From positions 1 to 49,501 of the forward strand of contig JANQPU010000064.1 in NCBI GenBank assembly GCA_028285315.1: 49,501 bases of DNA. The letters are read 5' to 3'. This document shows, in pieces, positions 31,346-47,815 of this stretch; position 1 is the stretch's first letter; each line of letters opens with the position of its first letter. The stretch is from Acaryochloris sp. IP29b_bin.176 (GTDB lineage Bacteria; Cyanobacteriota; Cyanobacteriia; Thermosynechococcales; Thermosynechococcaceae). The position numbers were made by a program, and so were the translations under genes. The notes beneath the pieces were generated by a model. The model did not search any database. It worked only from the letters and a program-made list of their open reading frames with translations, and was not told the origin of the DNA.

Positions 31346-31409
31346 ACAGAGAGCTAATCCAATTGTTAAGCATCACAACAGCATCCTAATTTCAGAAAAA
31401 ATCTACGCA

Positions 31410-33674
31410 TTATTTGACCTTGGCGCGAAAACGAATTGCACCGTATGAAGTTGTAGGGGTACCTGATCCTATTGCTTGGGGTAGATCACCCAGGTTGACG
31501 ACAATCGCTCCATTGTCTTCTGCTTGGGCAGGGGCAGCAGCACAAGCGGCTGGCAGAGTTGAACCTGGTGGGTAATACTGAGCGGTATCCCCATCCCCGT
31601 CATTGGTGTAGGAATAGAGATTGCCATTGTACTCCACAGATATGCCGCGATTGGCACCAACACCTCCCCCCGGTGCCGCTGAAACAGCGTTAAAAGCATC
31701 AGGCACAAAAGTTTGGAAGCTAGGGACCTTATCACACAGTTGGACATCTACTGCGGTTTGATTGCCTGTAGATAGGAAATAAATGGTGTATTCAATCTCA
31801 TCACCTGGTCGTGTTTCCCCCCCGTTGTTGGCACCAATCAGGTAGGTGCTCGGATTGGGCCAATATTCTGTATCTAGCGGAGTGGGAGCAGGGTTATCTA
31901 GGGTATTGTCATCGTAAGGATAGCTGGGGTCATCCACATAGACACTAAGGTCCGTGCTGCCATTAGCTGTGAGGCCGTTGACACGAGTGATGCGCTTAAC
32001 CAGCAAAACATTGGGGTTACTGGCAACTGGAATTACAACAGCAAAATCTTCTACTTCACCATCGTTCGCAAATACTCCAGGTGTATTGGCATTAATATTG
32101 CTATCAGTTGTTATGCGGAAACGGGCATAGGTTGTTGTTCCTCCTGTCATACCATTAACCCCTGCCCCAGACCATGTTAATGCCCCGTCTGGAGTAGCAT
32201 TTCCATTTTGTACGGTTTGAGTGGTATATTCATCTGCTTCAAAAGTGCCATTCCCATCAAAGTCCAACCAGGCGTGAAGGGTTGCTGGCCCACCAGTGTT
32301 GTTGGTTACCGAGATATTGGGTGCAGGGATGGTATAGGTGGTAGCGCTGGCATTGAGGGTAGATAAGGTGACCCCATCTTCATCATCCGTACCATCACTG
32401 TCATCACCGTCGGCTCCGGCTCCAGCATCACCACCGAGTTGGGTGTCAGCTTCATTATCAGGTACAGTACTGCCTAAATAGAGACTGGGGGTAATGGTGT
32501 GGCTCGCATCACCATAACTATCAGGCGCGTCACCGAAGTCGAACGAAAAAAGCCGAAAACCAAAGTTCTGGTTCACAATTGTGCTGCCAGCTGTGATGTT
32601 AATTCCTGTAAGGGGATTTATTGTACTAATGGTAAGCCCGCTAGGAATCTGAGGATCACTCGTCACTACCTGAATCTGGTAATTACTTCCTGGTGGTACA
32701 TATGGGAAGATGAAGTCGCCACTGCCATCCGTTACCACTGTACTAAGCACTGTGCCACTGCTATTGAGCAGTTGAACCTCAATATTGGCAGGTAACCGGA
32801 GATCTCCCGTATTAAAGGTGTTATCGCTATTGGTATCTTGATAGAGGGTGCCAGCAACGCTACCCCCTTGGGGACACATAGCCTGGACTAAGGTCGCCAT
32901 TTCGGCTCCCAATGTGGCAAAGCTACTCACAGGAACATAATCGGCGGTAAATGCATTATTCCCATTGAACTCCGATGTATTAGGTCCGTCGGTTACACCG
33001 GTGAAATCGGTAATTGTGAGAGCAGGATCTTGAATACCAATGCCATAAATATGCGATCCAACTTGCTTGAGTTGAAGGGCTTCATCATCGGGGCTACCGC
33101 CATTGTTGATTTCTCCATCAGTAAAGAAAAATGTCACATCTGGACTTCCTGGTGTAATACCTAACGCAACAGCTGCTTGAAATCCAGATTCCCAGTCTGT
33201 AAGCCCTCCAAATCCATAATTATTATTCAAGGCAGTTTGAAAGGTTGACAGAGTAGCTGATGTCACATTGGTGTAGTTGATGACCGTACTGGAAGAGCTT
33301 GAAAATCGGACAATTGCTGCACGGGCTGCAATGTTATTATCCACAAAGTGATTCAACATCGTCATTACAGCATCTCTCTGCTGTTGACGTTCAGTGAAGC
33401 TAACAGAACCTGAATCATCCAGAATAAACATTAGATCTGGAGTAGTTAAGCAGAAGTTGTTGTCTATGTCTGGGTTAATATTTCCAGTTTGGGCATAAAT
33501 AGGGAGTTGATGAAAGGGAAATGAGGAAGCTGTAATAATGCTAATGATCTTCAAAGATAGTGATGAGAAATCAGCTGATCGCCGAATTTTCTGCCAAGAA
33601 TGTTGAGGTACTTGGGAAAACGTTGTTTTGTTTTTGGCAATCGTTTGTAACGCCTTGAATAAGGATTTCATCAT
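31410..33674 (-). CDS. Secreted VWA / SdrD-B / GEVED surface protein
   Basis: A 754-residue exported protein. The N-terminal 60 residues contain a hydrophobic signal segment (IISIITASSFPFHQLPIYAQ). A von Willebrand A domain follows (about 75-265) with a MIDAS in LDDSGSVSF and FFTDGEINNGGSPDD. An SdrD-B/Cna-like beta domain (about 275-370; SVAGTLYQDTNSDNTFNTGD) and a GEVED-type domain (about 375-550; FDFGDAPDSYGDAS, DSDGTDDEDGV, DGEVEDFAVVIP) come next. The last 190 residues are DUF11-like with KRITRVNG and GDEIEYTIYFLSTGNQTAVD. The acidic stretches are likely to bind calcium. This fits a cell-surface adhesin. No sorting signal is seen at the C terminus, so attachment may be through another partner. 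Confidence 0.85.
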   Translation of the reverse strand: MMKSLFKALQTIAKNKTTFSQVPQHSWQKIRRSADFSSLSLKIISIITASSFPFHQLPIYAQTGNINPDIDNNFCLTTPDLMFILDDSGSVSFTERQQQRDAVMTMLNHFVDNNIAARAAIVRFSSSSSTVINYTNVTSATLSTFQTALNNNYGFGGLTDWESGFQAAVALGITPGSPDVTFFFTDGEINNGGSPDDEALQLKQVGSHIYGIGIQDPALTITDFTGVTDGPNTSEFNGNNAFTADYVPVSSFATLGAEMATLVQAMCPQGGSVAGTLYQDTNSDNTFNTGDLRLPANIEVQLLNSSGTVLSTVVTDGSGDFIFPYVPPGSNYQIQVVTSDPQIPSGLTISTINPLTGINITAGSTIVNQNFGFRLFSFDFGDAPDSYGDASHTITPSLYLGSTVPDNEADTQLGGDAGAGADGDDSDGTDDEDGVTLSTLNASATTYTIPAPNISVTNNTGGPATLHAWLDFDGNGTFEADEYTTQTVQNGNATPDGALTWSGAGVNGMTGGTTTYARFRITTDSNINANTPGVFANDGEVEDFAVVIPVASNPNVLLVKRITRVNGLTANGSTDLSVYVDDPSYPYDDNTLDNPAPTPLDTEYWPNPSTYLIGANNGGETRPGDEIEYTIYFLSTGNQTAVDVQLCDKVPSFQTFVPDAFNAVSAAPGGGVGANRGISVEYNGNLYSYTNDGDGDTAQYYPPGSTLPAACAAAPAQAEDNGAIVVNLGDLPQAIGSGTPTTSYGAIRFRAKVK

Positions 33675-33759
33675 TACTACTTTGAATAATTCCTTGTATA
33701 TCTGTAGCCTGTGCAGGTCTATTCCACATTCAGGATGGAGTGTAATTGCACGACAGTAA

Positions 33760-34405
33760 TCAATTGTTCTTAGGTTGGACCATCGATTTAGCTAATCCAA
33801 CAGAAGACACTAAAGGCTTTTGATCTTTAGTATTTATTGCAGGCTTCCAAGTACCATGCTTTACATAGATTGCAATTGCACTCAGTCGATCACCTGGCTG
33901 TAGTTTCTTTAAGGTGATGGCGAACCATCCCTCCTCATCAGCGAGCCCCAAAGGTTCTCTCAGAGGGCCGCGCTTACCGTTTGTTGCGTTGACTTGATAT
34001 CAGGATCACTTATGCACCCGGATCAACAGTGCCATCAATAGGGACCTGACTGATTGCCCAAAATGAAGAACTCTGAGCTGAGACATTGCGGGGGATTAAT
34101 GCCACGATTAGTCGTATCTCATCAATGCTGATGGGAATTTCAAGGAGGGTTGAGATATCTCCAATTTGGTAATCTTGAACCCTCGTACTGGAGTTGGCAG
34201 CTCAACTAAGTCGGTTATTGGGTAGGCACGACAACTGACCCAGGAATCGGTTGTTGCGGGCAGTCAGATCAATGCTGTGGCCATCGAGGTTAGTAGCGCG
34301 GTTGCCCAGGATAAGGCTGCGATCGCTCGATCGAATGGTCATGCCTTCACTAGTGCTCGACCACACAGAAAATGATAGCCTTCTACAAGGCTGAAATTCT
34401 TTCAT
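33760..34405 (-). pseudogene. Decayed surface-protein / adhesin-like gene
   Basis: Several minus-strand frames each carry protein-like pieces with no single open frame. From upstream to downstream: GMTIRSSDRSLILGNRATNL with DGHSIDLTARNNRF, then QIGDISTLLEIPISIDEIRL, then SQVPIDGTVDPGA, then after a stop NATNGKRGPLREPLGLADEE with GWFAITLKKLQPGDRLSAIA. The last piece has the GTVDPGA...DEEGWFxxTLxxLQPGDxLSA pattern of bacterial Ig-like (Big) domains. I read this as a broken adhesin or haemagglutinin-type gene, possibly once part of the same surface locus as the VWA protein just downstream. The exact family cannot be fixed from so little. Confidence 0.45.
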
Positions 34406-34684
34406 TTAAGGTGTTTTGCGTTTAAAAAACTGTCTAAATCACTGTGGTAGAGCACTAGATCAATCAAAATCAATGTGATTGTGATCTTTAGTTCGCAGGT
34501 GCGTGGTCTGGTTCGGCTGGACTAAGGTTACCTTGGTTGAGGGTGCCATTTGTGGGTGAGATTGTCGGCGGTGATTTAAAATCCGCCTCAGTTATTACCC
34601 AAAAGTACTTGATTTTATGCAACTGGGTACACTAAAGGGCAACCTCAGCTTATCGTTCCACTCCTTTCTTAGCCGAATTTGGTC
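34406..34684. other. Upstream region of the REC-GGDEF-EAL gene
   Basis: About 280 bases with no recognisable gene. It is moderately AT-rich and would hold the promoter of the REC-GGDEF-EAL gene. No operator or terminator was recognised. Confidence 0.4.
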
Positions 34685-36592
34685 ATGACACTAAATACGC
34701 CATCCCAGACGGTGGATCCGCCTTCCAGTGAAGAGTCGAAAGGCTTGATTTTGATCGTTGATGATACCCCTCATAACTTGCAAATCTTATCTACGGCGTT
34801 GACCAAACAAGGCTATCAGGTGCGAGGCGCAGCTAATGGCTCTATGGCACTCATTGGGGCAAAAAATATTATGCCCGACTTGATCTTGCTGGATATCAAG
34901 ATGCCAGAGATGGATGGCTATACTGTCTGTGAGCGATTGAAAGCTGACGCGGCCACTCAAGAAATTCCAGTCGTTTTTATTAGTGCCTTAGACGATGCTT
35001 TAGATAAGGTAAAGGCGTTTACCGTCGGTGGCGTGGACTATATTACCAAGCCATTTCAACTGGCTGAGATTCTAGCTCGTGTGGAAAACCAGCTGACGAT
35101 TGGTCGTCTGCAAAAAGAGCAGCGCCAACAGAATGAGCAGCTGCAAGCCGAGGTACGCGATCGCATTGCTGCTGAAGCCCAAATTCAAGCGCTCAATGCT
35201 GACTTAGAGCAAAGAGTGATTCAGCGGACTGAACGGTTAAAACAAGAAATTGCTGAGCGGGAAAAAGCGCAAGAGCAGCTTAAATATATGGCGATGCACG
35301 ATCCGCTTACGGATTTGCCCAATCGCACCTTGTTTCTTAACTGTTTAGAGGCAACCCTTCAAGAAATCCAACAGCATCCAGACCGATCGTTTGCCTTATT
35401 GTTTTTAGATTGCGATCGCTTCAAAGCCATTAATGATTCCCTGGGACATTTGGTGGGAGATCAGTTTCTCGTTGCGATTGCCAAACGCTTTCAACGCTGT
35501 GTGGGTGATCAACTCCTTGCTCGTTTAGGCGGAGATGAATTTACAATTCTGCTTAAAGATGTTTCCAATGAGCATCAGGCCACAGACCTTGCCAATGCTA
35601 TTCAGCAAAGTTTGTTAGAACCGTTTCATATTGGGGACAATGAATTTTTTATCTCTGCCAGTATTGGCATTGTCATGAGCCACCCAGACTATCAGCAACC
35701 CACAGAGATGCTACGGGATGCGGATACGGCAATGTATCGGGCCAAAGCTTTGGGCAAAGCACGGCATATCGTCTTTAATGCCAGCATGCATGCAGATGTC
35801 CAAAGTTCACTGCAGCTGGAAACGGACTTGCGACGGGCCATCGAACGTCAAGAATTTATTCTTAACTATCAACCGATTGTGGCTCTAGAGACCGGAATAA
35901 TTACCGGGTTCGAAGCTCTTGTTCGCTGGATTAGCCCTGAATTAGGATTTGTGTCACCTGGGAAATTTATTCCCCTGGCTGAAGATACAGGCTTGATCAT
36001 CCCCTTAGGGGAGTGGGTGTTGCGAGAAGCTTGTCGCCAATTAAACGAATGGCAGACCCACAATGTGACTGATATTCCCTTGACGATGAGCGTGAATTTA
36101 TCTGTCAAACAATTCTCTCAACCCAACCTGATTGAAGTAATCGACCAAGTTTTGGCCCAAACGCAACTCCCCGCCCATTGCTTAAAGCTGGAAATTACAG
36201 AAAGCGCCATTATGGAGAACTCTGACTCCGCCGCTAAGATTCTCGATCAACTCAGAGCCCGTCAAATCCACTTGAGCATTGATGATTTTGGTACGGGCTA
36301 TTCTTCATTAAGTTACCTGCACCGTTTCCCCGTGAATACCTTGAAAGTGGATCGGTCCTTTGTTTGTCGCCTTGATGCTGCTGATGATAACGTTGCCATT
36401 GTCCAGGCGATTGTTACCTTAGCTCAAACCATGGGTATGGATGTGGTGGCTGAAGGTATCGAAACGACGGAACAACAATTGCAACTCAAAGCTCTGGGTT
36501 GTGAGTACGGACAAGGATATTTGTTTTGCAAGCCTGTCGACGCCGAAACAGTGCGTGAGATGCTGGCTAGTAAAAATTACACTTTGGGTTAA
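34685..36592 (+). CDS. Response-regulator GGDEF-EAL cyclic-di-GMP enzyme
   Basis: A cytoplasmic protein of 635 residues from the ATG at 34685 (a TTG two codons upstream is also possible). The receiver domain (20-140) has D26-D27, phospho-acceptor D70 in LILLDIKMPEMDG and K122 in ITKPF. A coiled-coil linker (about 145-200) leads to a GGDEF domain with an intact GGDEF at 282-286, then an EAL domain with EAL at 410-412 and the loop DDFGTGYSSLSYL. Both catalytic motifs are intact, so it may synthesise or hydrolyse c-di-GMP under phosphorelay control. No kinase is adjacent. It is convergent with a CslA-like glycosyltransferase, about 160 bases away, and c-di-GMP commonly activates such polysaccharide synthases. 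Confidence 0.93.
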   Translation: MTLNTPSQTVDPPSSEESKGLILIVDDTPHNLQILSTALTKQGYQVRGAANGSMALIGAKNIMPDLILLDIKMPEMDGYTVCERLKADAATQEIPVVFISALDDALDKVKAFTVGGVDYITKPFQLAEILARVENQLTIGRLQKEQRQQNEQLQAEVRDRIAAEAQIQALNADLEQRVIQRTERLKQEIAEREKAQEQLKYMAMHDPLTDLPNRTLFLNCLEATLQEIQQHPDRSFALLFLDCDRFKAINDSLGHLVGDQFLVAIAKRFQRCVGDQLLARLGGDEFTILLKDVSNEHQATDLANAIQQSLLEPFHIGDNEFFISASIGIVMSHPDYQQPTEMLRDADTAMYRAKALGKARHIVFNASMHADVQSSLQLETDLRRAIERQEFILNYQPIVALETGIITGFEALVRWISPELGFVSPGKFIPLAEDTGLIIPLGEWVLREACRQLNEWQTHNVTDIPLTMSVNLSVKQFSQPNLIEVIDQVLAQTQLPAHCLKLEITESAIMENSDSAAKILDQLRARQIHLSIDDFGTGYSSLSYLHRFPVNTLKVDRSFVCRLDAADDNVAIVQAIVTLAQTMGMDVVAEGIETTEQQLQLKALGCEYGQGYLFCKPVDAETVREMLASKNYTLG

Positions 36593-36749
36593 TCCTCCCG
36601 GCAAGCCTGCGAATATGCATATTACGCCCCAGTCAACCGGGCTGCGGTTCAGCGGTTCGGCTAAGCTCACTGCTGAAACCTTAGCACTTGGATCAGGATC
36701 TTGAAAGTCGGTTCTGCCTTGTTGTATTGCCAGGCATGTCCCCAACCCA

Positions 36750-38228
36750 TCAACGATGTTGGAACATGCTGAGGGTGAGGACGTAAATAAAGCCAATTAA
36801 GAAGAGCAATAGAAACGGTAGCGACAGATAATGGGCGTTGAATACTGCTACGGTTATCGTTAGGAGCAGATAAACAATCATTGAAAGTTCCAAGTAAGGA
36901 ACTAAGTTTTTGGCGGCGCGATATTTTCGGGTCTTCCAGTTCTCTTCGTTACTGGTGACGCCATGCTTGGGAGTACGTACAAAATCGCGCCCTACCCGAA
37001 AAAGACCATCACAAACGGCTAAGGATTGATTAATACTGAGCCCAATCCCCACACTCATCAACAAAAATAGATTCGAGGCCAGTTTCCAAGGCGATTGTTT
37101 GCCTCGTTGTTCTTCCTGAGCAACTGCATAAAAGGCTAGTAAGCTGAGGGTTGTCACGAGGAAGAGTGGCAGATGGATCGCAAGGCCATACCGCCAACCG
37201 GTTTGGGCAAGAAAGAGTTGGTATGGCAAAGACAACAGTAGCAATACCAACAGCAATAGGTAATTAAAATTATTAGTGAGATGGAAAAAGGCTTCCCACT
37301 TTACCTGCCAAGGAACCTGAGATGTCAATACTGGCATCAATAGCTTTTTAGCAACTTGGCTTGCTCCTTTGGCCCACCGAAACTGCTGGGATTTAAAGGA
37401 ATTCATTTCCATCGGCAGTTCAGCGGGCACCACAATATTGGGCAAATAAACACATTCCCACCCCTGGAGCTGCGCCCGATAAGATAGATCTAAATCCTCC
37501 GTCACTGTTGTATGTTGCCATCCCCCTGCCTCTTCGATAGTTTGGATGCGCCATATTCCAGCAGTGCCATTGAAATTGAAAAAACAACCTGAACGATTCC
37601 GAGAGGTTTGTTCGGTGACAAAATGTCCATCTAACATCAGGGCTTGGATTTCTGTGAGGATAGAATAATGGCGATTAATATGTCCCCAGCGAGCTTGGAC
37701 CATCCCGACTTTCGGGTTTGTGAAATAGTGAACCATGCTGAGCAACGTATCGGCGAACGGGACAAAATCAGCATCGAAGATCATCACCAATTCGCCTGTG
37801 GCTGACTGGAGTCCGTAAGAGAGTGCCCCAGCTTTGTATCCTTTGCGATCGCAGCGATGAATGTAGTCAATATTCATCTGGCGCTGCTTCAGCTCTTGCA
37901 CCTTTGCCTGACACATCTCTCGTGTTTCATCTGTCGAATCATCCAGCACCTGGATTTGGAGTTTATCGGCAGGATACCGCAATGCAGCGACAGCCTCTAA
38001 CAGCCGATCCACCACATACATTTCATTGAATAGGGGCAACTGAATGGTAACTCGGGGAAATTCTGATTCAGAGAACCGCTGCAACGGTTGGATGTTTTGA
38101 CTGCGTGTGCGATAGTACCGCCAAATAATGGAGATCTTATGGAAGCTGTATATGGCGATCAGCGACAAAATACTAAGGTATAGCTCAGGAATCACGCCTG
38201 AAAAACCATCAATGAAACTAATGTCCAT
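36750..38228 (-). CDS. Processive family-2 glycosyltransferase (CslA/cellulose-synthase-like)
   Basis: A 492-residue membrane glycosyltransferase. One N-terminal helix (LYLSILSLIAIYSFH), then a GT2 catalytic domain with LPLFNEMYV, the UDP/GDP-binding DDSTDE, the DAD motif in MIFDADFVPF, the catalytic TEDLDLSYR and the QxxRW-type acceptor motif QQFRWAKGASQVAKK. Three or four membrane helices follow. The set D, D, D, QxxRW is that of processive beta-glycan synthases, and the overall size and spacing resemble CslA-type glucomannan synthases rather than BcsA; no PilZ domain is visible. The product is unknown: mannan, glucomannan or another beta-glucan. The neighbouring c-di-GMP enzyme suggests regulated exopolysaccharide. 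Confidence 0.87.
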   Translation of the reverse strand: MDISFIDGFSGVIPELYLSILSLIAIYSFHKISIIWRYYRTRSQNIQPLQRFSESEFPRVTIQLPLFNEMYVVDRLLEAVAALRYPADKLQIQVLDDSTDETREMCQAKVQELKQRQMNIDYIHRCDRKGYKAGALSYGLQSATGELVMIFDADFVPFADTLLSMVHYFTNPKVGMVQARWGHINRHYSILTEIQALMLDGHFVTEQTSRNRSGCFFNFNGTAGIWRIQTIEEAGGWQHTTVTEDLDLSYRAQLQGWECVYLPNIVVPAELPMEMNSFKSQQFRWAKGASQVAKKLLMPVLTSQVPWQVKWEAFFHLTNNFNYLLLLVLLLLSLPYQLFLAQTGWRYGLAIHLPLFLVTTLSLLAFYAVAQEEQRGKQSPWKLASNLFLLMSVGIGLSINQSLAVCDGLFRVGRDFVRTPKHGVTSNEENWKTRKYRAAKNLVPYLELSMIVYLLLTITVAVFNAHYLSLPFLLLFLIGFIYVLTLSMFQHR

Positions 38229-38610
38229 ATAATGCTTTTAATTTATAAATTATGCTCAGATTTTCTGCAAAACTCCAGAACTATCACTTTTGATAAGCAG
38301 GAGGAAGCCTGTATTCTATCCCGCCCAGACGAGAGCCAGCTTAATTCAATCTGAGAGGATAATTAGTTTCTACACAATCCGTCGTGAAAGGAATAGTTGC
38401 AGAAGATATGTGTGGAAAGCTTTTGGTGAAAATCTGCCATCTACATCCCAGCAATAACTAGACAAGAATCCTAGGGGCCAAAATAGTTTCTTAGAGACTC
38501 TCTTTATAAATTGAGCTACAAGGGATAAGATATAGTACTAATGTTCTATATTGACGGAATCACTGAATATACTCGCAGTCATATTTCTGGTTTTATATGG
38601 ATGATCGAAT
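38229..38610. other. AT-rich gap before the GHKL-nuclease gene
   Basis: About 380 bases between the divergent glycosyltransferase and GHKL-nuclease genes. It is AT-rich, like the downstream gene, and should contain both promoters. No gene, repeat or recognisable operator was found. Confidence 0.4.
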
Positions 38611-40608
38611 ATGATTCTTTCTAATGCCTCTCTCTCTAAAAAATTCAGCATGCCCGATAATAATCAATTGGAATTGTTGCCAGTTAGGTATGACACAAGG
38701 TTTCTAGAAACTCATGCAGGAAACAGAATTCTTGCTGATCCTACTATTGCTGTCATAGAGCTTATAGCTAACGCATGGGATGCATATGCCTGTCATGTCA
38801 ATATAAGATGGCCTAATAAAAATAGAAATCAGACATTTTCCATTGAAGATGATGGGAGTGGTATGACTGCCGATGAGTTTCAGCAGAGATGGATGACTCT
38901 GGCTTACAACCGAAGAGAATATCAAGGAGAATATGCTGAGGCACCTCCGAACAGGTCGAATAAACCGCCACGTATGACATTTGGTAAAAATGGTTTAGGG
39001 AGACACGCAGGCTTTTGTTTTAGTGAGACAGATGAGTTTTTTGTAGAAACTGCTAAGGATGGTCAGTTAGTTAAATTTCGTGTTTGGATTCCAATTCATG
39101 GAGAATATCCCTTAGCTTGCAAGCAAATTGAACAAAAGGAAACAGATAGCACAGGGACAAAAATATATACTACAACTATCATTGATACTGGTATAGATGC
39201 AGATGAAATTCGATCGCAAATAGGATTAAGATTCCTTCGAGATCCAGAATTCCAAGTCACTGTAGATGATCAATTAGTTACTTTCTCAGATCTTCCTAAA
39301 GACAATATTCATGAAATTCCACTGCAAGTTGAAGATGTTGGTGATTTACTCATTCTTGCGATAAATACACAAAAAGCTGATAGAACCACAAAACATCATG
39401 GTATAGCTTGGCATGTTCAAGATCGATTAGTCGGAGAAGCTTCATGGAAGACCTTTAATGATAATGCTTTTATTGATGGGCGATCACGCGAAGCCAAACA
39501 ATATGGTTTTATTATTAAAGCTGATCCTCTTAAGGATTTAGTGAAATCTGATTGGACAGGCTTTAATGAAGATCATAACAATACTCAAAAATGTATTCAA
39601 TTAGTTAATGAAGAGATCAAGAAATTCTTGCTTGATCTAACACGAACAACGCGACTAACACGCACCCAAGAACTTCAAGAGACAAACAGGCATTACATCA
39701 ATGAGATGTCGTTAATGGATGCTAGTATTTGGAATAGTTTTATAAATAAAGTTCAAGAAGAATGCAATAGTATAAGACCTTCAGACTTAGATAATATTGC
39801 TTCAATACTTGCAAAGCTAGAAGCTTCAAAAAATCAATATTCTTTGTTAAATAAGCTCAAAGACATATCTATTAATGATTTTGATAAACTCGATGATATT
39901 TTAAGTCAATGGGATATTGAAACTGCTAAAACAGTTCTCAATGAGCTGCAAACAAGACTCAAACTTATTGATGAGATAAGGAAGAAGATTGACAATGATA
40001 ATGCTGATGAGATAAAAGAGCTACAGCCTCTTTTTAAAAGAGGATTATGGATATTTGGGCCAGAGTTTGAAACGATCGAATATACTTCTAATGAAGGTAT
40101 GACAAAGGTCATCCAAAAAATATTTAAGTCTGAGGGTAAAGGATCAAGAAATAGGCCCGACTTTGTTATAACGACTGATAGTACTGTAGGCATTTACTCA
40201 AGGCCGGAATATGATGATCAAGGATCTGAACTAGGCCCTAAAAATATTGTTATTGTCGAGCTAAAAGCACCTGATGTACCACTGGGTGACAAAGAAATTG
40301 AGCAGCCTTGGAAGTACATTCAAGAACTCCTGGAGAAAGGTCATTTTGATGAGGATTTTATGACTGCTAGATGTTTTGGACTTGGAAGGGATATTAAGCG
40401 ATATCAGGGTGGCAAGAGTAGTAAAATGGACGGACGTGTAGAAATATTTCCACTACGCTATGAAGATTTTCTCACTCGTGCAAGAAGTAGAACGTTAAAC
40501 CTATATAACAAAGTAAGAAAGGCCCCGTTCCTAAATCGTGAAGAAATTGATGACTTCCTAGAAAAAGGTGGAGTCAATGACGGAGTACAACAATCATTGG
40601 AGCTTTAG
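38611..40608 (+). CDS. GHKL ATPase fused to Shedu-like (DUF4263-type) nuclease domain; putative anti-phage protein
   Basis: A 665-residue cytoplasmic protein with two ends I can assign. The N-terminal 350 residues are a GHKL (Hsp90/MORC/MutL-like) ATPase: N box VIELIANAWDAYA (E50, N54, D57), G1 IEDDGSGM (80-85) and G2 FGKNGLGRHAGF (124-135). A helical linker spans about 350-475. The C-terminal 190 residues start with LWIFGPEFE (479-487) and contain RPDFVI (D517) and IVELKAP (E550, K552), then QPWKYIQ, a D...ExK...Q arrangement typical of Shedu-like nucleases. Shedu is a known single-gene defence family with varied sensor domains. The gene is clearly AT-richer than its neighbours and stands alone, consistent with horizontal gain. 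Function as an ATP-switched phage-sensing nuclease is inferred. Confidence 0.75.
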   Translation: MILSNASLSKKFSMPDNNQLELLPVRYDTRFLETHAGNRILADPTIAVIELIANAWDAYACHVNIRWPNKNRNQTFSIEDDGSGMTADEFQQRWMTLAYNRREYQGEYAEAPPNRSNKPPRMTFGKNGLGRHAGFCFSETDEFFVETAKDGQLVKFRVWIPIHGEYPLACKQIEQKETDSTGTKIYTTTIIDTGIDADEIRSQIGLRFLRDPEFQVTVDDQLVTFSDLPKDNIHEIPLQVEDVGDLLILAINTQKADRTTKHHGIAWHVQDRLVGEASWKTFNDNAFIDGRSREAKQYGFIIKADPLKDLVKSDWTGFNEDHNNTQKCIQLVNEEIKKFLLDLTRTTRLTRTQELQETNRHYINEMSLMDASIWNSFINKVQEECNSIRPSDLDNIASILAKLEASKNQYSLLNKLKDISINDFDKLDDILSQWDIETAKTVLNELQTRLKLIDEIRKKIDNDNADEIKELQPLFKRGLWIFGPEFETIEYTSNEGMTKVIQKIFKSEGKGSRNRPDFVITTDSTVGIYSRPEYDDQGSELGPKNIVIVELKAPDVPLGDKEIEQPWKYIQELLEKGHFDEDFMTARCFGLGRDIKRYQGGKSSKMDGRVEIFPLRYEDFLTRARSRTLNLYNKVRKAPFLNREEIDDFLEKGGVNDGVQQSLEL

Positions 40609-40626
40609 TACTATTAACCATAGACT

Positions 40627-40647
40627 AGAGAATATATATCTCTTTTT
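40627..40647 (+). terminator. Weak Rho-independent terminator
   Basis: AGAGA at 40627-40631 pairs with TCTCT at 40639-40643 across an AT-rich loop and is followed by TTTT. It lies just after the stop of the GHKL-nuclease gene and would end its transcript before the convergent kinase gene. Confidence 0.4.
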
Positions 40648-40709
40648 AAGAGTAATTTATTGAGGAAGAAATTAAGTAAAAGTGTTTAGGTTGGTTATTT
40701 TTTACTTCT

Positions 40710-42380
40710 CTAATCATCCTCAATCTCTAAAAGCTGATCTTGGGCAATGGCAAACCACAGTTGTTGGGCTCGTTTACCTTGAAGATCGACATCCCGATAC
40801 ATCGGTAAATCATCCACCAATTGCTCATCTACTTGCCGATAAAAGCGGCGCCTGTTGACCTTTTTTCTGCGCAACTGGTTGTCTAGACGCTGGCGATCGC
40901 GAAGACGGTATTGGCCAATGCGATCGCGCACCCCTGGATTGAGCTTGCCCATTGCCTCTAGAACTTGGAACCCCACTTCATCCCATTGCTCTCGCAACGG
41001 GGCATCCGCCTCACTCCGGGTCAAGGCTCGCCCCTCATAGTTGGGATATTCCAAGAAAAAAGCTTCATTTGTGATCTGGTTGAAATAGCTAGTAGGAATG
41101 CCCAATGCATCAATGCGCTCAAACAAGCGGGCCTTACGGGCCAACTCTTCCCGAGATAAGGGTGGTGGTTCTTTGGGTTTGGCAGGCTCTTCCTGACTGT
41201 TGGGCGTAGTGACGCTGCTGGTCTCGATCCGCTCGCGGATAGCCCAGATCACGCCGCCTAAGAGGGTTGCGATCGCACCTAGAATCAGCACCTGCTTCAG
41301 CAGGGTAATCGTCCAATTTTGGACTTTGTTGCCGACCTTGGTCACTACCCCCGGTTCTTTCACTACGGGTTCAGCAACGACCGTATGCTGCGTGATTTCG
41401 GCCTTAAACTCGGCGACATCCGTTGGGGGCGGGGGCGGGAAATCGGGTTTTGCCTGGTTCAGGGTTGGAGGTGTGGGCAATTTTTGTCCTGGCGAAGGAG
41501 TGGCCAGATGACCCAGTTGCTCTAAATCTCTTAGGGCTCGTTGGGCAGAGGGATAGCGGGCATTGGCCTGGGCAGCAACCATGGTCTCTAAAATCCGCGC
41601 CAATTCCTCATCCACGCCGATATGTCGCCACTGAAAGGTCCGGGTGTTGGCGTCATAAAATTCCTGTGGGTCTTGGCCCATCAGCATCACGAGGGCCGTT
41701 ACCCCTAGGGCGTACAGATCGCTATGCTCGTAAACTTTGCCCAATCGAATCTGCTCTTCTGGGGCATATCCTGGCTTCCCTAGAATCGTGGTCTCACCAA
41801 ATTTGCGATCGGGATTATCGGGGTCCACAAACTTGCCAAAACTAGCCGTAATTTGCTTGACGCCGCCAAAGTCAATCAGAATCGGCAACCCATCGTTTTG
41901 CCGCTGAATCAAATTATCTGGGGAGATATCTCGATGGATTAACCCTTGCCGATGGATATAGTCAAGAACCGGCAATAGTTGAGTTAAAAAGGTATAAACT
42001 TCTGACTCTGTATAGGTTTGCCCCTGGCCGACCCGCTCGCGCAGCAACGTCTGATAGGTTGCTCCTTCCACATAGTCTTGAACCAGACACAAAGACCGAT
42101 CCTGCGGTCCCATAAACCATTCTCGGAAACGCGGAATTTGAGGATGATCCAGCTTATACAGAACCGCCGCTTCACGGACAAATAGCTCTTTCGCCTTCGT
42201 CAGCAGGAGTTCACTGCTTTCACTAGCGGGGGCAAACTCCTTGAGGACGCACCGCTCATTAAACCGATGAATATCTTCAACCAAGTAGGTACAGCCAAAT
42301 CCGCCTTGCCCGAGTTCCCGCACAATGCGGTAGCGGTTAGCAATGGTTGTTGCTGGGGGATGATACTGCTGCGTTGGCAT
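40710..42380 (-). CDS. Membrane-bound Ser/Thr protein kinase
   Basis: A 556-residue Hanks-type kinase. The kinase domain (16-290) has the glycine loop GQGGFG, catalytic lysine K47 in CVLKEF, HRDISPDN (149-156), the metal-binding DFGGVKQ with D170 and a GYAPEEQ activation segment. The usual HRDLKPEN lysine is Ser here, a variant that recurs in this kinase group, so it is probably still active. A proline-rich linker (about 300-325) and one membrane helix (VLILGAIATLLGGVIWAI) follow, then a tail of about 155 residues rich in charged helices. It probably phosphorylates signalling proteins at the membrane. No phosphatase or FHA partner lies next to it, though the FHA protein at 16585 is a candidate target elsewhere in the window. 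Confidence 0.9.
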   Translation of the reverse strand: MPTQQYHPPATTIANRYRIVRELGQGGFGCTYLVEDIHRFNERCVLKEFAPASESSELLLTKAKELFVREAAVLYKLDHPQIPRFREWFMGPQDRSLCLVQDYVEGATYQTLLRERVGQGQTYTESEVYTFLTQLLPVLDYIHRQGLIHRDISPDNLIQRQNDGLPILIDFGGVKQITASFGKFVDPDNPDRKFGETTILGKPGYAPEEQIRLGKVYEHSDLYALGVTALVMLMGQDPQEFYDANTRTFQWRHIGVDEELARILETMVAAQANARYPSAQRALRDLEQLGHLATPSPGQKLPTPPTLNQAKPDFPPPPPTDVAEFKAEITQHTVVAEPVVKEPGVVTKVGNKVQNWTITLLKQVLILGAIATLLGGVIWAIRERIETSSVTTPNSQEEPAKPKEPPPLSREELARKARLFERIDALGIPTSYFNQITNEAFFLEYPNYEGRALTRSEADAPLREQWDEVGFQVLEAMGKLNPGVRDRIGQYRLRDRQRLDNQLRRKKVNRRRFYRQVDEQLVDDLPMYRDVDLQGKRAQQLWFAIAQDQLLEIEDD

Positions 42381-42753
42381 CAGATGCCCTCCACATCGGC
42401 AGACTGAAACAGAGCTGGGTCAGGAACACGTTCAAACAAGAGCGATTTTGGGGTATGGTTCAGGGCCAAGTTGAATTATTGGCATCTTAGCAAACCCATC
42501 GTTGGGAATTTTGGTTGTGACGCTTCTCGATTCTTTACAAAGACTAACAAACGCATTCGCAAGCTGGCGTTATTGCAATCACTATATCCCTGTTGGCTCA
42601 ATCACAGTCTCCGTCATCAATAGAGACGTTTCTGAACGCTCTCTAAGTTCCCAGTTTCGTCCGTTTCTGACCCAAGGATTAGGAATAGAGGTGTCAATTT
42701 AGCATCCCTCGTATACCATGTAGCCAACAGAAAGCGGGTTGTGGACAGGGTTT
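42381..42753. other. Divergent intergenic region
   Basis: About 370 bases between the divergent kinase and HerA-like genes. It would hold both promoters. A short plus-strand frame at 42502 lacks a ribosome site and protein-like features. I see no repeat or operator of note. Confidence 0.4.
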
Positions 42754-44439
42754 ATGGTTCGAGAGCAGCACAAACAGGCTACCAATGTGATTGGCACGGT
42801 CAAAGGACCTGGAGACAGCGGTAACCAGTACGTGTTCATCACCGCCGATACCCAACACATCAAAATTGGTGAGTTTGTGTCCTATCGCCTCACCCATACT
42901 GACAATATCCCCGTCGAAATTTTAGGGAAGATTTCGGCCTGCACCCTCGTCGATCACCTCCCAGATCGGATTTTTGCGGATACAGAAATCGACCCCAGCG
43001 CTATTGCCTCTCTGATCGGCTTTAAATATTCCAGTCCTGAAATCTATGAAGTGGCTGTGGATGTGATCGGTTACTTCCATCCCAATCTCGGGTTTATGAA
43101 TCCACGTCAGCCCCCCGAACCGGGGGCTAAAGTGTATCGAGCGGATGATCCAACCTTGCGACGGATTCTGAATAAGCGACAAACGGGGGAGGTTGGATCG
43201 GCCACCATTGGGTCGCTACTGTTGCGAGATCGCGATGCCGTTCCCATTAGCCTTGATGTTAAAGCGCTCGTCAGTACCCATATGGCGATTTTGGCGGGTA
43301 CAGGCTCCGGTAAATCCTACACCGCTGGCGTCCTGATCGAAGAACTGCTGCGTCCCTACAACCGGGCTGCTGTCCTGATCTTTGACCCCCACGGCGAATA
43401 TGGCACCCTAGAAGCCATGCGCGGTCATCCTGCCTTTAGCAGTGACGATGGCTATGCCCCCCAGGTGCAAATCCTTACGCCTGAGCAGATTACCATTCGG
43501 ATATCCTCCCTCAACTATGCCGATATCAAGATGCTGCTGCCAGAAATGAGTGAGCGCCAGCAAGCCATCCTCAATAAAGCCTTTAACAATCTCCAAGCTA
43601 AAAAGCGTAAAAATGCCCGTTGGGATATCAATGATTTAATCTTTGAGGTCAACGAAGCAGACATTGTTCAAGATAAGAATGGTAACGATCAGCCTGGCTC
43701 CTCGGCCCAAGCCCTGGAATGGAAATTAGAGAAACTCGCCAACTCCCCCTACTTCCACGCCTTTGAGCATCTCACCCCCCAAGATTTGTTTGAACCGGGA
43801 CAGGTCACCGTGCTGCAAATGAACGAGATTAGTCAAGAAGAGCAGCAGGTGATTTGTGCAGCCATCCTTCGTCAGGCTAACCAGGCTCGCATGAATACTC
43901 TGAAAGAGAAAATCACCGCAGAAGATGAAAACTATTTACCCTATCCCGTCTTTACTCTGCTGGAAGAAGCCCACCGTTTTGCCCCCGCCCATGAGCCTTC
44001 CCGCTGCAAAGCGGTGATCCGCACCATCCTCAGTGAAGGCCGCAAATTTGGGTTAGGCGTAGGACTGATTACCCAACGCCCTGGCAAGCTAGATTCAGAT
44101 GTCCTATCGCAATGCATGAGCCAGTTCATCATGCGCATCGTCAACCCCGTGGATCAAGACAGCCTCAAGTACGGTGTCGAAGCCGCAGGTCGAGATTTAC
44201 TCAAGGAATTACCCGCCTTGACGAAGGGACAGGTGATTATTTCAGGGATGTGTGTGAATACCCCTGTCTTGTGCCAAGTGCGGCAACGCTTAACGGCCCA
44301 CGGAGGGGAAACCTTAGATGCTCCCTCCCTCTGGCAAGCCCACTTCCAATCCCACCGCTTACGAGAGCGGGCTGCGGCTAGAGCGCCTTTGGCTGGACGA
44401 CGACAAGCGGCAACAGTGCGCGGGGTTTCGATTGAGTAG
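42754..44439 (+). CDS. HerA-like ATPase (DUF87/HAS-barrel)
   Basis: A P-loop ATPase of 561 residues from the ATG at 42754 (an in-frame GTG lies 15 bases upstream). The N-terminal HAS-barrel-like part (NVIGTVKGPGDSGNQYVFIT) is followed by Walker A in ILAGTGSGKSYTAGVL, then IFDPHGEYGTLEAM, and Walker B in VFTLLEEAHRFAPAHE with an arginine-finger-type ILSEGRKFGLG. This is the HerA/FtsK-like DNA-translocase family, which usually works with the nuclease NurA in end resection. No NurA-like gene is seen in the window, so it may act with a nuclease elsewhere or serve in a defence or repair complex. The tail (RERAAARAPLAGRRQ) is basic. Confidence 0.87.
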   Translation: MVREQHKQATNVIGTVKGPGDSGNQYVFITADTQHIKIGEFVSYRLTHTDNIPVEILGKISACTLVDHLPDRIFADTEIDPSAIASLIGFKYSSPEIYEVAVDVIGYFHPNLGFMNPRQPPEPGAKVYRADDPTLRRILNKRQTGEVGSATIGSLLLRDRDAVPISLDVKALVSTHMAILAGTGSGKSYTAGVLIEELLRPYNRAAVLIFDPHGEYGTLEAMRGHPAFSSDDGYAPQVQILTPEQITIRISSLNYADIKMLLPEMSERQQAILNKAFNNLQAKKRKNARWDINDLIFEVNEADIVQDKNGNDQPGSSAQALEWKLEKLANSPYFHAFEHLTPQDLFEPGQVTVLQMNEISQEEQQVICAAILRQANQARMNTLKEKITAEDENYLPYPVFTLLEEAHRFAPAHEPSRCKAVIRTILSEGRKFGLGVGLITQRPGKLDSDVLSQCMSQFIMRIVNPVDQDSLKYGVEAAGRDLLKELPALTKGQVIISGMCVNTPVLCQVRQRLTAHGGETLDAPSLWQAHFQSHRLRERAAARAPLAGRRQAATVRGVSIE

Positions 44440-44618
44440 TAGTGATCTAATTCAAAAGCAGAGTCTTGGAAACATGATGTGCATTTCTATTCTGTTGCCG
44501 AGTTGCCAAGTGCAGCGTCAATGGTGATGGTGCGCTCGGTCAACCTATGAGCGTTTCCTCAGCAGAATTGAGAGCTGACCTTAATTGAGTTAACCATCGA
44601 TAACGCAACATAGTGTCT

Positions 44619-45443
44619 TCAAACTGTGTGTTGAGAGAGCATTCTTTGGGCCTCCACTGCAACATTAAAAAAATCGTGTTGAGAAGGAGCAGGTTCACTC
44701 TCTCCTTGCTGGAGCCACAATAAAAACTCAATATTGCCCTTTGGACCTGGTAAGGGGGACCAGGTTAACCCTGCATAGTGCCACCCCAAGGCTGATGCAG
44801 ATTTCCAGACTTGTGCGATCGCATCTCCGTGTGCATGGGAATCTCGTACCACACCCTGTTTACCCACTCGATCCTGGCCCACTTCAAACTGGGGTTTGAC
44901 GAGGAGAACGATCTCCCGTGGAGGTTGTAAGAGCTGCCACAATGCAGGCAATATTTTGGTGAGGGAAATGAACGAGACATCAATCACGCCTAAATCAGGC
45001 ATAGAGGCTTGCTCAGCATACAAATCAGCAGGTTGAAGATAGCGAAGATTGGTGCGTTCTCTCAGAATTACCCGAGGATCAGTACGAAGTTTCCAAGCTA
45101 CCTGTCCATAGCCAACATCAATGCCATAAATCTGTTTAGCCCCCGCTTGCAGTAGACAGTCCGTAAATCCCCCTGTAGAGATGCCGCCATCTAGACAAAT
45201 TCGGTCTTGCACTTGAATAGGAAATTCAGCTAATGCCTTTTCTAACTTATGGCCACCACGAGAGACATAGGGAGACTTTTGTTTGACCTGAATATCTGCC
45301 GTTAATTGAACTTCTGTCCCTGGTTTGTCAATAATGTGGTCATTAACCCTTACTTCCCCAGCTCGGATCACCCGCTGGGCCTGCTGCCGGGAGGTACATA
45401 ACTCTAATGAAACGAGTAAGGTATCCAGTCGCTGTTTAGCCAA
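44619..45443 (-). CDS. tlyA: TlyA-family rRNA 2'-O-methyltransferase
   Basis: A 274-residue protein with an N-terminal S4 RNA-binding domain (RLDTLLVSLELCTSRQQAQR to about 65) and a FtsJ/RrmJ-like Rossmann methyltransferase. SAM-binding and catalytic regions include LDGGISTGGFTDCLLQAG, GIDVGYGQVAWKLRTDPRV, VIDVSFISLTKILPAL, LLVKPQFEVG and GPKGNIEFLLWL. TlyA proteins methylate cytidines in 16S and 23S rRNA, affecting capreomycin sensitivity in mycobacteria; some are also called haemolysin A. The start is a TTG at 45443, with a GGAG 13 bases upstream and a stop codon in frame just before it, so no longer start exists. Confidence 0.9.
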   Translation of the reverse strand: MAKQRLDTLLVSLELCTSRQQAQRVIRAGEVRVNDHIIDKPGTEVQLTADIQVKQKSPYVSRGGHKLEKALAEFPIQVQDRICLDGGISTGGFTDCLLQAGAKQIYGIDVGYGQVAWKLRTDPRVILRERTNLRYLQPADLYAEQASMPDLGVIDVSFISLTKILPALWQLLQPPREIVLLVKPQFEVGQDRVGKQGVVRDSHAHGDAIAQVWKSASALGWHYAGLTWSPLPGPKGNIEFLLWLQQGESEPAPSQHDFFNVAVEAQRMLSQHTV

Positions 45444-45562
45444 GGTGAGGGTTATTCTCCATCATTGCTTTCCCAATTCTAGAAGCCTGCTCTCCCTGAC
45501 TAACAGTCAGACCCCCTAAAATACTAGATAAGCCAGCCGTATCTACGTTAGACCTAAACCTC

Positions 45563-45955
45563 ATGTTTGGTAGTTTTCAAACGAGTAAACTCAGAATTGA
45601 AATTAATGCCTCCGAGACAGCATTGCGGAATGCGTTAACTCAGGGATCACAAATTAGACAATGGCTATGGCCCCAAACGTTTTCAGATGATTTACCCTCA
45701 ATATTAAAACCAGGGGCCGTCTTTACGAGCTGGCTTGGTCCTGTCGAAATCCAACATCACATTGATGTGGCTGATAGCAACACCCTGCGATTCATCTTGA
45801 GCAAAGGGGTGGATGGTTTTCAAGAATGGTCCTGGGGAGAAAAATGGGTGCAGTCCCGCCTAGAGGGGGTTTCATTGCTTCCTCTCAATGTGGGCCAAAG
45901 CCTGACCCTACTGCGATTAAAGGCATTTTTGGAATGGCGTAGTTCGGAAGTCTAG
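45563..45955 (+). CDS. SRPBCC-like small protein
   Basis: A 130-residue soluble protein, probably of the SRPBCC/polyketide-cyclase-like fold. The N-terminal strand LRIEINASETALRNALTQGS, the hydrophobic SWLGPVEIQHHIDVADSNTL region and the C-terminal helix LNVGQSLTLLRLKAFLEW suit a helix-grip fold that holds a small hydrophobic ligand, and the tail recalls conserved cyanobacterial proteins of this type. No catalytic residue can be assigned. It is convergent with the stress-protein gene, overlapping it by four bases at the stop codons. Confidence 0.6.
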   Translation: MFGSFQTSKLRIEINASETALRNALTQGSQIRQWLWPQTFSDDLPSILKPGAVFTSWLGPVEIQHHIDVADSNTLRFILSKGVDGFQEWSWGEKWVQSRLEGVSLLPLNVGQSLTLLRLKAFLEWRSSEV

Positions 45956-46371
45956 CGCACTACCATCACTGAGCAGGAGGCATCACTGACCACCTGGCTG
46001 CTGACAGATCGTTGAAGAATTCGAGTCACGCCTGTTAACCCTCGACTGCCAATCAAAATTAAATTTGCTTTGTAGATATTGGCTAGCCGGACAATTTCTT
46101 CGGCCGGATCACCCGTCACTATTTCTAAACTACTGTCGCAAGGAAGTGACGCTTGGTGGGTTTGTAATTCTTCTTCAATATGGCGAAATAATCCCAGTTT
46201 CGGATCGGAATAAGGGCGATCTGCAGGTTTCTCCTCACCGATTTCGTTGGTAGAAATCACGTGAGTTAGGATCACTTTCTCCACTGACTCTAGTTGAAGA
46301 CTCTTGAGGGCCTGCATGACCCGCTCAGAAAGTTCGGGGCTATCCAGGGCGACCAGGATTGTATTGAACAC
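45952..46371 (-). CDS. Universal stress protein (UspA family), altered nucleotide motif
   Basis: A 139-residue protein with the Rossmann-like Usp fold, starting ILVALDSPELSERVMQALKS. The ATP-binding motif in the family is G-x2-G-x9-G-(S/T). Here it reads GSRGLTGVTRILQRSVSSQV, so the third glycine is replaced by Arg. Nucleotide binding may be weakened. Family members promote survival under starvation, oxidative or other stress. The start is GTG at 46371, with a GAGG ribosome site immediately upstream. It overlaps the end of the convergent SRPBCC-like gene by four bases. Confidence 0.85.
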   Translation of the reverse strand: MFNTILVALDSPELSERVMQALKSLQLESVEKVILTHVISTNEIGEEKPADRPYSDPKLGLFRHIEEELQTHQASLPCDSSLEIVTGDPAEEIVRLANIYKANLILIGSRGLTGVTRILQRSVSSQVVSDASCSVMVVR

Positions 46372-46509
46372 TCAACCTCACTCCTGTTGAACTAACAATT
46401 CCTACTTTAGGGTTTTGTAGTCCCAACCAATAGACTTGCATTGTCTAGTCATACTCAGATGCTGTCAACAACAATTCTTAATTTTGGCTTGGCAAGTAGA
46501 CTGTAAAGT

Positions 46510-47151
46510 ATGCTTACTTCTGAATCGAAGCCTCGTTGCTTACTTCATCTGGATGCTAGTGCTCGCATCCAAGGATCATTGTCCCGTCAACTTACACAGG
46601 CGTTTGTCTCTCAATGGCAACAAGCGAACCCCAATCATACCCTGATCTATCGCGATCTGGGCAGCTCACCTATCCCTCATATTGATGCAACTTGGGTCGC
46701 CGCTTATGAGTCTGAACCGGAGCAGCGAACCCCAGAGATGAGGGCTGCGGTCGCACTGTCCGATACCCTGATCGATGAACTGATGGCGGCAGACTGCTAT
46801 GTGGTGGGAATGCCCATGTACAATTTAACGGTGCCTTCCAGCTTTAAGGCATATATTGATCAGGTGATCCGGCGCGATCGCACCTTGCACATCGAGAATG
46901 GTACACCGCAAGGACAATTGGCAGGTAAAAAGCTATTAGTCATCACAACCCGAAAATATAATTACCGAGTGGGTTCAGGCCGGGAAGACCGAGATTTCCT
47001 AGAACCTTATCTCAATGCAATTTTTAATGTTTTGGAGCTTATGGATATTTCATATATTCATGCTGACAAGCTAGCGTTATCCGACGCTGAAAGAGAGCAA
47101 TCTCTAGCCAATGCGACCTATGCCATTCACCAACTAGCCTTGACCTTTTGA
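46510..47151 (+). CDS. azoR: FMN-dependent NADH-azoreductase
   Basis: A 213-residue flavodoxin-like oxidoreductase. The FMN phosphate site is LHLDASARIQGSLSRQLTQA, the MPMYNLTVPSSFKAYIDQVI segment is characteristic of AzoR, and LLVITTRKYNYRVGSG contains the flavin-binding loop. AzoR-type enzymes reduce azo dyes and quinones with NADH, and in the cell probably protect against thiol or quinone stress. Length is typical (about 200). The neighbouring stress-protein gene is divergent, separated by about 140 bases. Confidence 0.9.
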   Translation: MLTSESKPRCLLHLDASARIQGSLSRQLTQAFVSQWQQANPNHTLIYRDLGSSPIPHIDATWVAAYESEPEQRTPEMRAAVALSDTLIDELMAADCYVVGMPMYNLTVPSSFKAYIDQVIRRDRTLHIENGTPQGQLAGKKLLVITTRKYNYRVGSGREDRDFLEPYLNAIFNVLELMDISYIHADKLALSDAEREQSLANATYAIHQLALTF

Positions 47152-47169
47152 TCGCTCTTTAAGCATTAA

Positions 47170-47205
47170 GGCTGGAAAGTAGATACTTTCCAGCCCCCTT
47201 GATTT
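47170..47205 (+). terminator. Strong terminator hairpin after azoR
   Basis: GGCTGGAAAGTA (47170-47181) pairs perfectly with TACTTTCCAGCC (47184-47195), giving a stem of about 11 pairs. It is followed by a CCCCTTGATTTCTTT run that is moderately T-rich. It lies 19 bases after the azoR stop. Confidence 0.65.
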
Positions 47206-47278
47206 CTTTGATTCCAGTAAGCTGTACTCCTCACCCTGCCAGCACAATTAAGGCAAAAGACTAAATCGGATGTTTTGA

Positions 47279-47641
47279 TCAGTCGTCTTGCTGCTCCAGA
47301 ATTCCTGCAAATTGCTCTTTGACACCTTCTAAGAGATTGGGTTGATCTCCATCTACCTGAGGTAACAGGCCCGCAAGCTGTTTGGACTCTTCCAACGCCA
47401 TAAACATAACGACCAGCTTTTCTTGGGTTTTCTGCACCGCCTCCGCCAGTTGTTCTCTATTTTCCGTCATATTTTCGATCTGACTCGTCAATGACGAAAT
47501 TTGATCTTGTGTTTCTTCCAGTTCTTTCTCTGAAACTTGCTGCTTAATAATTGAGCGAGATTGTAAAAAGATGATGAGAATAATAGCCCCTAAAAAGGCG
47601 AGGAACAGAAAATCTGGAGCCATGGTATCGTTCGCAGTCAT
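47279..47641 (-). CDS. Small membrane-anchored coiled-coil protein
   Basis: A 120-residue protein with one N-terminal membrane helix (LFLAFLGAIILIIFLQ, about 12-27) followed by a long predicted coiled coil (ISSLTSQIENMTENREQLAE and neighbours, to about residue 90) and a short acidic tail. No enzymatic motif is visible. The ATG at 47641 has an AAGGAAGG ribosome site upstream. It may organise a membrane complex, but no partner is evident. It lies between azoR (convergent) and ftsH, on the same strand as ftsH, after the ftsH terminator. Confidence 0.7.
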   Translation of the reverse strand: MTANDTMAPDFLFLAFLGAIILIIFLQSRSIIKQQVSEKELEETQDQISSLTSQIENMTENREQLAEAVQKTQEKLVVMFMALEESKQLAGLLPQVDGDQPNLLEGVKEQFAGILEQQDD

Positions 47642-47785
47642 ATTAACCTTCCTTGTTTATAAGTAATGCACGCGCCTATTTATGGGTTACCACTTTGTGT
47701 AATCCACTGTAAAGCGTTCACTTAGATCCTCTCAACACTATGCAAATACTCGAAATAGAAAAGTTTTTTTGCATCACATCTGGAT

Positions 47786-47815
47786 CGAAAAAGACCCCCT
47801 GCTCAGCAGGGGGCC
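47786..47815 (-). terminator. Rho-independent terminator of ftsH
   Basis: CCCCCTGCT (47795-47803) and AGCAGGGGG (47805-47813) form a strong GC-rich hairpin. Read on the minus strand it is followed by a T run (TCTTTTTCG). It lies 35 bases after the ftsH stop codon. Confidence 0.75.

Follow-up and report, generated by a model that had tools for sequence, protein, structure and literature searches.

The window analyzed here, a stretch of 49,501 nucleotides from Acaryochloris sp. IP29b_bin.176, makes up a complete contig (C209) in a draft genome of 5.35 Mb and 438 contigs. On its + strand, an open reading frame (ORF) occupying exactly positions 38611 to 40608 begins with ATG, is intact throughout, and encodes a 665-amino-acid protein that joins a GHKL ATPase to a nuclease domain. 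The ORF is real, as a first-pass annotation had taken it to be, with homologues in plasmid records and genome contigs. Its GC content is 0.365 compared to 0.476 for the window, in line with the earlier description of the gene as AT-rich, and the isolation claimed at the same time is evident from the two adjacent genes, a GT2 glycosyltransferase and a Ser/Thr kinase gene, each of which lies on the opposite strand. Of 524 plasmid records that match the kinase, the best 12 listed are all cyanobacterial, but for the glycosyltransferase the best match is from Pseudoalteromonas. As for the weak terminator ascribed to the gene, "weak" is a fair word for what can be seen by eye at about 40627 to 40643, i.e., a 5-bp stem with two G-C pairs followed by T's, but a terminator scan found none on the + strand at the end of the gene, and the hairpin could be due to chance. 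Ten ORFs near the fusion gene were scanned, and these include a glycosyltransferase, a GGDEF-EAL regulator, a protein kinase, and a HerA-type ATPase; except for the last, they are not typical defense genes. HerA-type ATPases are used by some defense systems, and the one found here is located two genes from the fusion gene, within conserved DNA.

Homologues were detected in eight plasmid records, all from alphaproteobacteria, with at least 80% of the query matched at 39 to 41% identity. Single-sequence search of genome contigs returned no matches; when the contigs were scanned with an eight-row family alignment (A1), 341 stretches were related at E ≤ 1e-3, and 80 of them were retained for closer study. 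The latter come from alpha-, beta-, and gammaproteobacteria, Bacteroidota, Planctomycetota, Verrucomicrobiota, and Spirochaetota, as well as from a Marinimicrobia MAG, a cyanobacterial MAG, and archaea, and viral contigs carry three more full-length relatives (L121 to L123). The eight plasmid matches and the 341 related stretches indicate that the fusion ORF is more than a chance reading frame. Among the 90 loci examined, 83 encode proteins of 600 to 730 amino acids, which were reduced to 62 by removal of near-copies at 90% identity and aligned with the window protein in 63 rows; the seven loci with a frame outside this length range were left out, among them L116 from a Leptolyngbyaceae MAG, which has a 312-amino-acid frame although its match covers residues 23 to 635.

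The N-terminal part of the protein contains a GHKL ATP-binding domain (38743 to 39084, + strand), with residues 45 to 158 matching Pfam HATPase_c_3 with an E value of 2.1e-17. When a profile of 35 family members was compared with the PDB, Hsp90, endoplasmin, HtpG, and MutL chains were retrieved through the ATPase part, as judged from the best 60 of 153 matches. The three boxes of this fold are all present on the + strand: the N box from E50 to N54 (38758 to 38772), the G1 box D80xG82xG84 (38848 to 38862), and the G2 box G125xN127G128xG130 (38983 to 39000). E50, N54, D80, G82, G84, G125, G128, and G130 are found in 63 of 63 rows and N127 in 60, so that the proposal of a GHKL ATPase with intact N, G1, and G2 boxes is upheld by both the Pfam match to this part of the protein and the alignment. 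Downstream, alignment and a motif count place a presumed S5/transducer domain, marked by the conserved sequence GIAWxVxxRLVG (39178 to 39600, + strand, presumed boundaries), and the alignment suggests a helical linker or clamp region thereafter (39601 to 39930, + strand). In 59 of the 63 rows, a GhXh....Rhh stretch resembles the MORC S5 motif GhXhhpXXRhl, except that the position which is polar in that motif is hydrophobic here.

The C-terminal part contains a PD-(D/E)xK nuclease domain (39931 to 40530, + strand), which profile-profile comparison identifies as a remote relative of SduA_C. All motifs of the proposed nuclease core, LWIFG, RPD517, VE550LK552, and Q565PWKYIQ, were located in the window protein and are almost invariant in the 63 rows: D517 of RPD (40159 to 40161, + strand) is present in 62 rows, E550 of the ExK motif E550-L-K552 (40258 to 40266, + strand) in 61, with D in the other two, and K552 and Q565 (40303 to 40305, + strand) in all 63. 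E467, E487, D517, and E550xK552 are kept in 61 to 63 rows, and either E467 or E487 presumably supplies the first E of an E-D-ExK arrangement. Because the catalytic residues of ATPase and nuclease are near-invariant in the same 63 rows, both active sites are constrained together. These comparisons indicate that the gene is a member of a family of consistent build and not a chimera.

We compared the locus with those of sister genomes. The two flanking genes, glycosyltransferase and kinase, have counterparts in G001 with identities of 89% and 91%, separated by about 380 bp, and in G002 with identities of 88% and 90%, separated by about 790 bp. In both genomes, DNA similarity stops at 38370/38371 and returns at 40710, delimiting a 2.3-kb acquired segment between conserved flanks (38372 to 40709); the same place is taken by 232 bp of other sequence in G001 and 649 bp in G002. 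A third genome, G003, retains the left flank to the same base, but it is uninformative on the insertion because the kinase is not adjacent in the stretch examined. Since the content of the glycosyltransferase-kinase interval (window 38229 to 40709; about 4692 to 5340 of L166 in G002) differs between G001 and G002, it is possibly a small hot spot for insertions.

The gene is rare among relatives. No full-length homologue was found in six other genomes of the same genus (G001 to G006), G005 giving a partial match to residues 36 to 144 (E 6.7e-4), and full-length matches occurred in 2 of 145 related genomes and 2 of 386 genomes, both times the genome of the window itself and G043, a genome of the same class with a homologue at 39% identity. 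A further genome, G175, gave a remote match over residues 47 to 522 at 22% identity. In a maximum-likelihood tree built by a quick method, the window protein groups with the gammaproteobacterial L042 and L063 (SH-aLRT 96), and L002, the other homologue in the tree from the same class, falls in a different clade on a long branch; L116 is not in the tree. Altogether, the low GC content, the absence of the segment in two sister genomes, and the grouping with gammaproteobacterial homologues suggest that the fusion gene was probably acquired horizontally.

This history bears on whether the protein might be a MutL-like ATPase-nuclease of repair or recombination, with a housekeeping instead of a defense role. 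MutL models do match its ATPase domain, MutL and Hsp90 chains are retrieved by the family profile, and non-restriction functions are considered possible for some stand-alone paraMORC3 proteins in the consulted sections of a 2008 survey (PMC2292703). However, MutL scores are far below their cut-offs (23.6 bits for the TIGR00585 MutL equivalog, which has a cut-off of 180), and a full-length gene in 2 of 145 related genomes, a species-specific insertion, foreign composition, and the position in the tree are hardly those of a housekeeping gene, which makes this reading very unlikely.

The first-pass annotation had called the nuclease Shedu-like. When the window protein was scanned with Pfam SduA_C (PF14082), no match was obtained, and the PADLOC SduA model matched residues 443 to 486 with an E value of 0.0029. 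Among 35 family members, SduA_C matched eight (E up to 1), the best with an E value of 0.0029, equivalent to 18.2 bits, and none reached the curated cut-off of 27 bits; the commonest PADLOC SduA model matched seven. We then aligned 35 nuclease domains of the family (A4) and 12 hand-picked Shedu C-termini (A5) for profile-profile comparison. The direct comparison was collinear over 148 columns and weak, with a probability of 5.9% (E 0.0064) and, in the opposite direction, 10.5% (E 0.003); hhalign paired Q565 with the invariant Q of the 12 Shedu C-termini. By profile, the two are bridged by a group of sister GHKL fusions that was first found in G175: it matches the window family at 98.75% (E 1.4e-16) and the Shedu C-termini at 95.7% (E 8.8e-9). 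The window family merged with this group matched Shedu at 95.8% (E 6.8e-9), and a merged profile that included BbrUII-type domains, described below, matched at 97.1% (E 6.4e-11); these merged profiles presuppose the first links among the window family, the sister group, and the BbrUII-type domains. As controls, reversed Shedu profiles scored 0.10 to 0.37%, and 0.04 to 0.58% was obtained with a profile built from two Mrr-type nucleases. Searching solved structures with a profile restricted to the nuclease domain gave no meaningful match. Given the links through the intermediate group and the merged profiles, together with the null controls, we conclude from profile evidence that the nuclease domain is a remote member of the Shedu nuclease superfamily, outside Pfam SduA_C as curated. 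The earlier assignment is therefore retained in the sense of homology to SduA_C via the sister family, but not as a DUF4263 match, which stayed below the Pfam cut-off in 35 of 35 members (best, 18.2 versus 27 bits).

Several other GHKL fusions were seen in the course of these searches. The sister family is represented by L167:5948-7720 (- strand) and L202 to L205, mostly of about 590 amino acids; L167 has its own SduA_C match, below the cut-off (E 2.4e-4), and L203 and L204 are near-identical copies beside a divergent DEAD/DEAH helicase gene. Another GHKL-nuclease type, with the motif VVVELKHP, is found in L018 and L023 from genomes of the same class as that of the window; L018 has a weak HSDR_N_2 match, and its SduA_C scan was negative. 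A search of viral contigs with canonical Shedu gave no matches.

We also considered if the protein is a sequence-specific type II enzyme of the BbrUII/HgiDII type, with a methylase that was lost, never present, or located elsewhere. Like the window protein, BbrUII/HgiDII (NF050001) carries a GHKL ATPase and a related nuclease domain in one chain, and the nuclease domains of the two are related by profile (96.8%, E 2.6e-10). The NCBIfam BbrUII model (NF050001) matches the window protein with an E value of 4.6e-28, but with a score of 98.2 bits versus a cut-off of 550, the best of two matched stretches being residues 48 to 227; a PADLOC type II restriction enzyme model matches 35 of 35 members, in the window protein over residues 42 to 151, that is, the ATPase part. 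Unlike the window gene, BbrUII/HgiDII has a DNA cytosine methylase as a partner in three plasmid loci, and a C5 methylase lies within about 8 kb at 3 of 4 BbrUII-type loci versus 0 of 59 family loci. These numbers come from tblastn with three cytosine methylases, taken from the three positive BbrUII-type loci and partly finding each other, which detected none in the 59 family loci nor in positions 30001 to 49501 of the window. The fourth BbrUII-type locus, L009, is without a methylase match, with flanks of about 1.5 kb upstream and 0.2 kb downstream. In the tree, the BbrUII group forms a separate clade with long branches. Given the lack of a nearby cytosine methylase and the low NF050001 score (98.2 versus 550 bits), we rejected the view of the window protein as simply a type II restriction enzyme, and we regard it as quite unlikely to be an enzyme of the BbrUII/HgiDII type.

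The BbrUII/HgiDII-type proteins are of interest in their own right. In a profile comparison, the C-terminal nuclease of L009, L199, L200, and L201 matched Shedu C-termini at 97.1% (E 5e-11), with L200 having EFM where ExK is expected. This match of C-terminal domains suggests that the type II enzymes BbrUII/HgiDII and Shedu share one nuclease family, and it makes testable the idea of one nuclease controlled with and without a methylase. The Shedu-BbrUII/HgiDII link was not found in the titles and abstract openings of papers that name BbrUII or HgiDII, a search that most subscription papers fall outside.

To describe the surroundings of the family, we kept 59 of 62 loci, dropping those below 6 kb, with flanks of a median of about 8 kb on each side, and clustered up to two ORFs per side. 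The first-pass annotation had proposed a stand-alone defense system, a proposal at odds with homologues lying consistently inside a known restriction system; no such arrangement emerged, as the largest BLAST cluster of neighbors comprised at most 3 of the 59 loci. A same-strand ORF within 60 bp was present at 22 of 59 loci and absent at 37. Pfam and PADLOC scans covered 115 of 117 immediate neighbors, two of more than 1300 amino acids being dropped, and tallies were drawn from the best 25 of 107 Pfam and 363 PADLOC families. Among the matches listed for the 115 neighbors were integrases (4), AAA_21 (4), Mrr nucleases (3), and Eco57I methylases (3), and among the PADLOC matches listed were mad3 (4) and reverse-transcriptase, DISARM-like, and type IIG models (2 each). 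By these matches, the neighbors of family loci appear as in defense islands.

Six loci were picked for large or close neighbors. L063 lies beside GmrSD and type III res genes, L061 beside GmrSD_N and N6_N4 methylase genes, and L088 beside an MmeI-like gene, and the other three (L080, L042, and L055) have no type III/GmrSD, N6/N4-methylase, or MmeI-like neighbors. With a same-strand ORF within 60 bp at 22 of 59 loci and restriction genes beside 3 of the 6 chosen loci, some family members may work with partners. The window protein itself might be an ATPase-nuclease that assists larger restriction operons of the type III, GmrSD, or MmeI type and is here parted from its partners. L063 is indeed one of the two rows closest to the window protein in the tree, and the consulted sections of PMC2292703 proposed in 2008 an accessory role in restriction operons for most MORC and paraMORC proteins. 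The same sections, however, mention stand-alone paraMORC3 genes, and no BLAST neighbor cluster exceeds 3 of 59 loci; moreover, the window gene is solitary, with unrelated genes on either side. We therefore consider a parted accessory subunit improbable.

Two further arrangements were observed on plasmids. In a Rhizobium sp. B21/90 plasmid (L036:7974-11379), a gene of the window family and, 10 bp after it, a canonical Shedu gene run in the same direction; the two may form an operon with two Shedu-type nucleases. A homologue on an Agrobacterium Ti plasmid (L038:7968-9902) lies near DNA-repair and polymerase genes.

GHKL proteins such as MutL, Hsp90, and type II topoisomerases work as dimers, with N-terminal domains that come together as a clamp when ATP is bound. 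For the fusion protein, the reading we prefer, at a probability of roughly 0.72, is that it is an acquired and here stand-alone phage-restriction nuclease of the paraMORC3 or GHKL-Shedu kind. The protein would act as a dimer, and on binding ATP its GHKL domains would close at the N-terminal end, clamping onto incoming DNA or onto a structure of phage DNA and protein. Closure of the clamp would be relayed through the S5 and helical parts to the paired C-terminal PD-(D/E)xK domains, which would then cut the DNA, with ATP hydrolysis resetting the clamp. According to the consulted sections of PMC12137116, the phage protection conferred by VcSduA of Vibrio cholerae, a GHKL-DUF4263 protein reported in 2025, is abolished in the E27A and K557A variants, the host survives, and cultures were protected at all multiplicities tested; canonical Shedu, in the consulted sections of PMC12904381, is kept inactive and activated by binding of DNA ends. 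From the residue requirements and culture protection of VcSduA, the activation of Shedu by DNA ends, and the GHKL behavior outlined above, we favor a model in which the protein restricts phage DNA directly, under the control of an ATP-driven clamp.

More tentatively, the GHKL-nuclease clade of bacteria and archaea, with no cytosine methylase alongside, could be a separate, mostly unannotated defense branch missed by standard SduA models. It might belong with BbrUII/HgiDII and Shedu to a single superfamily with a common nuclease, for which the gate would be an ATP clamp that senses the shape or the ends of DNA in some members and recognition of a site, paired with a methylase, in others; we judge this reading as a whole to be possible but doubtful. 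If it is true, classical type II enzymes such as HgiDII are relatives of Shedu. As to annotation, Pfam and PADLOC see the nuclease weakly, with SduA in 8 and 7 of 35 members, respectively, and it is a type II restriction enzyme model that matches 35 of 35.

A 2021 paper reportedly deals with paraMORC ATPases and two-component elements. The earlier survey by Iyer, Abhiman, and Aravind (2008, PMC2292703), in the sections consulted, describes paraMORC3 as an N-terminal GHKL and S5 ATPase with a C-terminal nuclease bearing E-D-ExK, sporadic in distribution, in some cases stand-alone, and prevalent in proteobacteria and Bacteroidetes. The window family shares with it GHKL boxes that are intact, a C-terminal E-D-ExK nuclease, the sporadic distribution, and a stand-alone subset, a likeness of described features and not of aligned PMC2292703 sequences. 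The same sections view paraMORCs mainly as parts of restriction-modification systems and reserve the S5 motif GhXhhpXXRhl for MORCs; the near-MORC GhXh....Rhh stretch in 59 of 63 rows may set the window family apart from paraMORC3 as so described.

Compared to canonical Shedu SduA (PF14082; PDB 8ti8 and 8ti9), the nuclease domain of the window family is remotely homologous (95.8 to 97.1% with merged profiles), and a scan of the canonical Shedu of L036 gave no GHKL match, unlike that of the window protein. A similar layout is seen in VcSduA, which is classified as Shedu type I-D and restricts phage, acting alone (PMC12137116, consulted sections): both are single proteins with an N-terminal GHKL ATPase and a C-terminal Shedu-type PD-(D/E)xK domain, as judged from the description and not from sequence comparison. 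The N-box glutamate and the ExK lysine are 530 residues apart in VcSduA (E27 and K557) and 502 in the window protein (E50 and K552), and DUF4263 is assigned in VcSduA whereas it is under the cut-off in the window family. The GHKL-nuclease architecture is thus already described, in paraMORC3 (PMC2292703) and in VcSduA type I-D (PMC12137116), at least in the sections consulted. Of the GHKL-Shedu fusion first proposed as a single-gene system, the lone gene and a remote membership in the wider Shedu superfamily stand, but there is no DUF4263 match above the cut-off and the subtype is not new. What the locus adds to the GHKL-Shedu type of phage defense is a probable member from a cyanobacterial genome and, with it, a widespread and uniformly built family.
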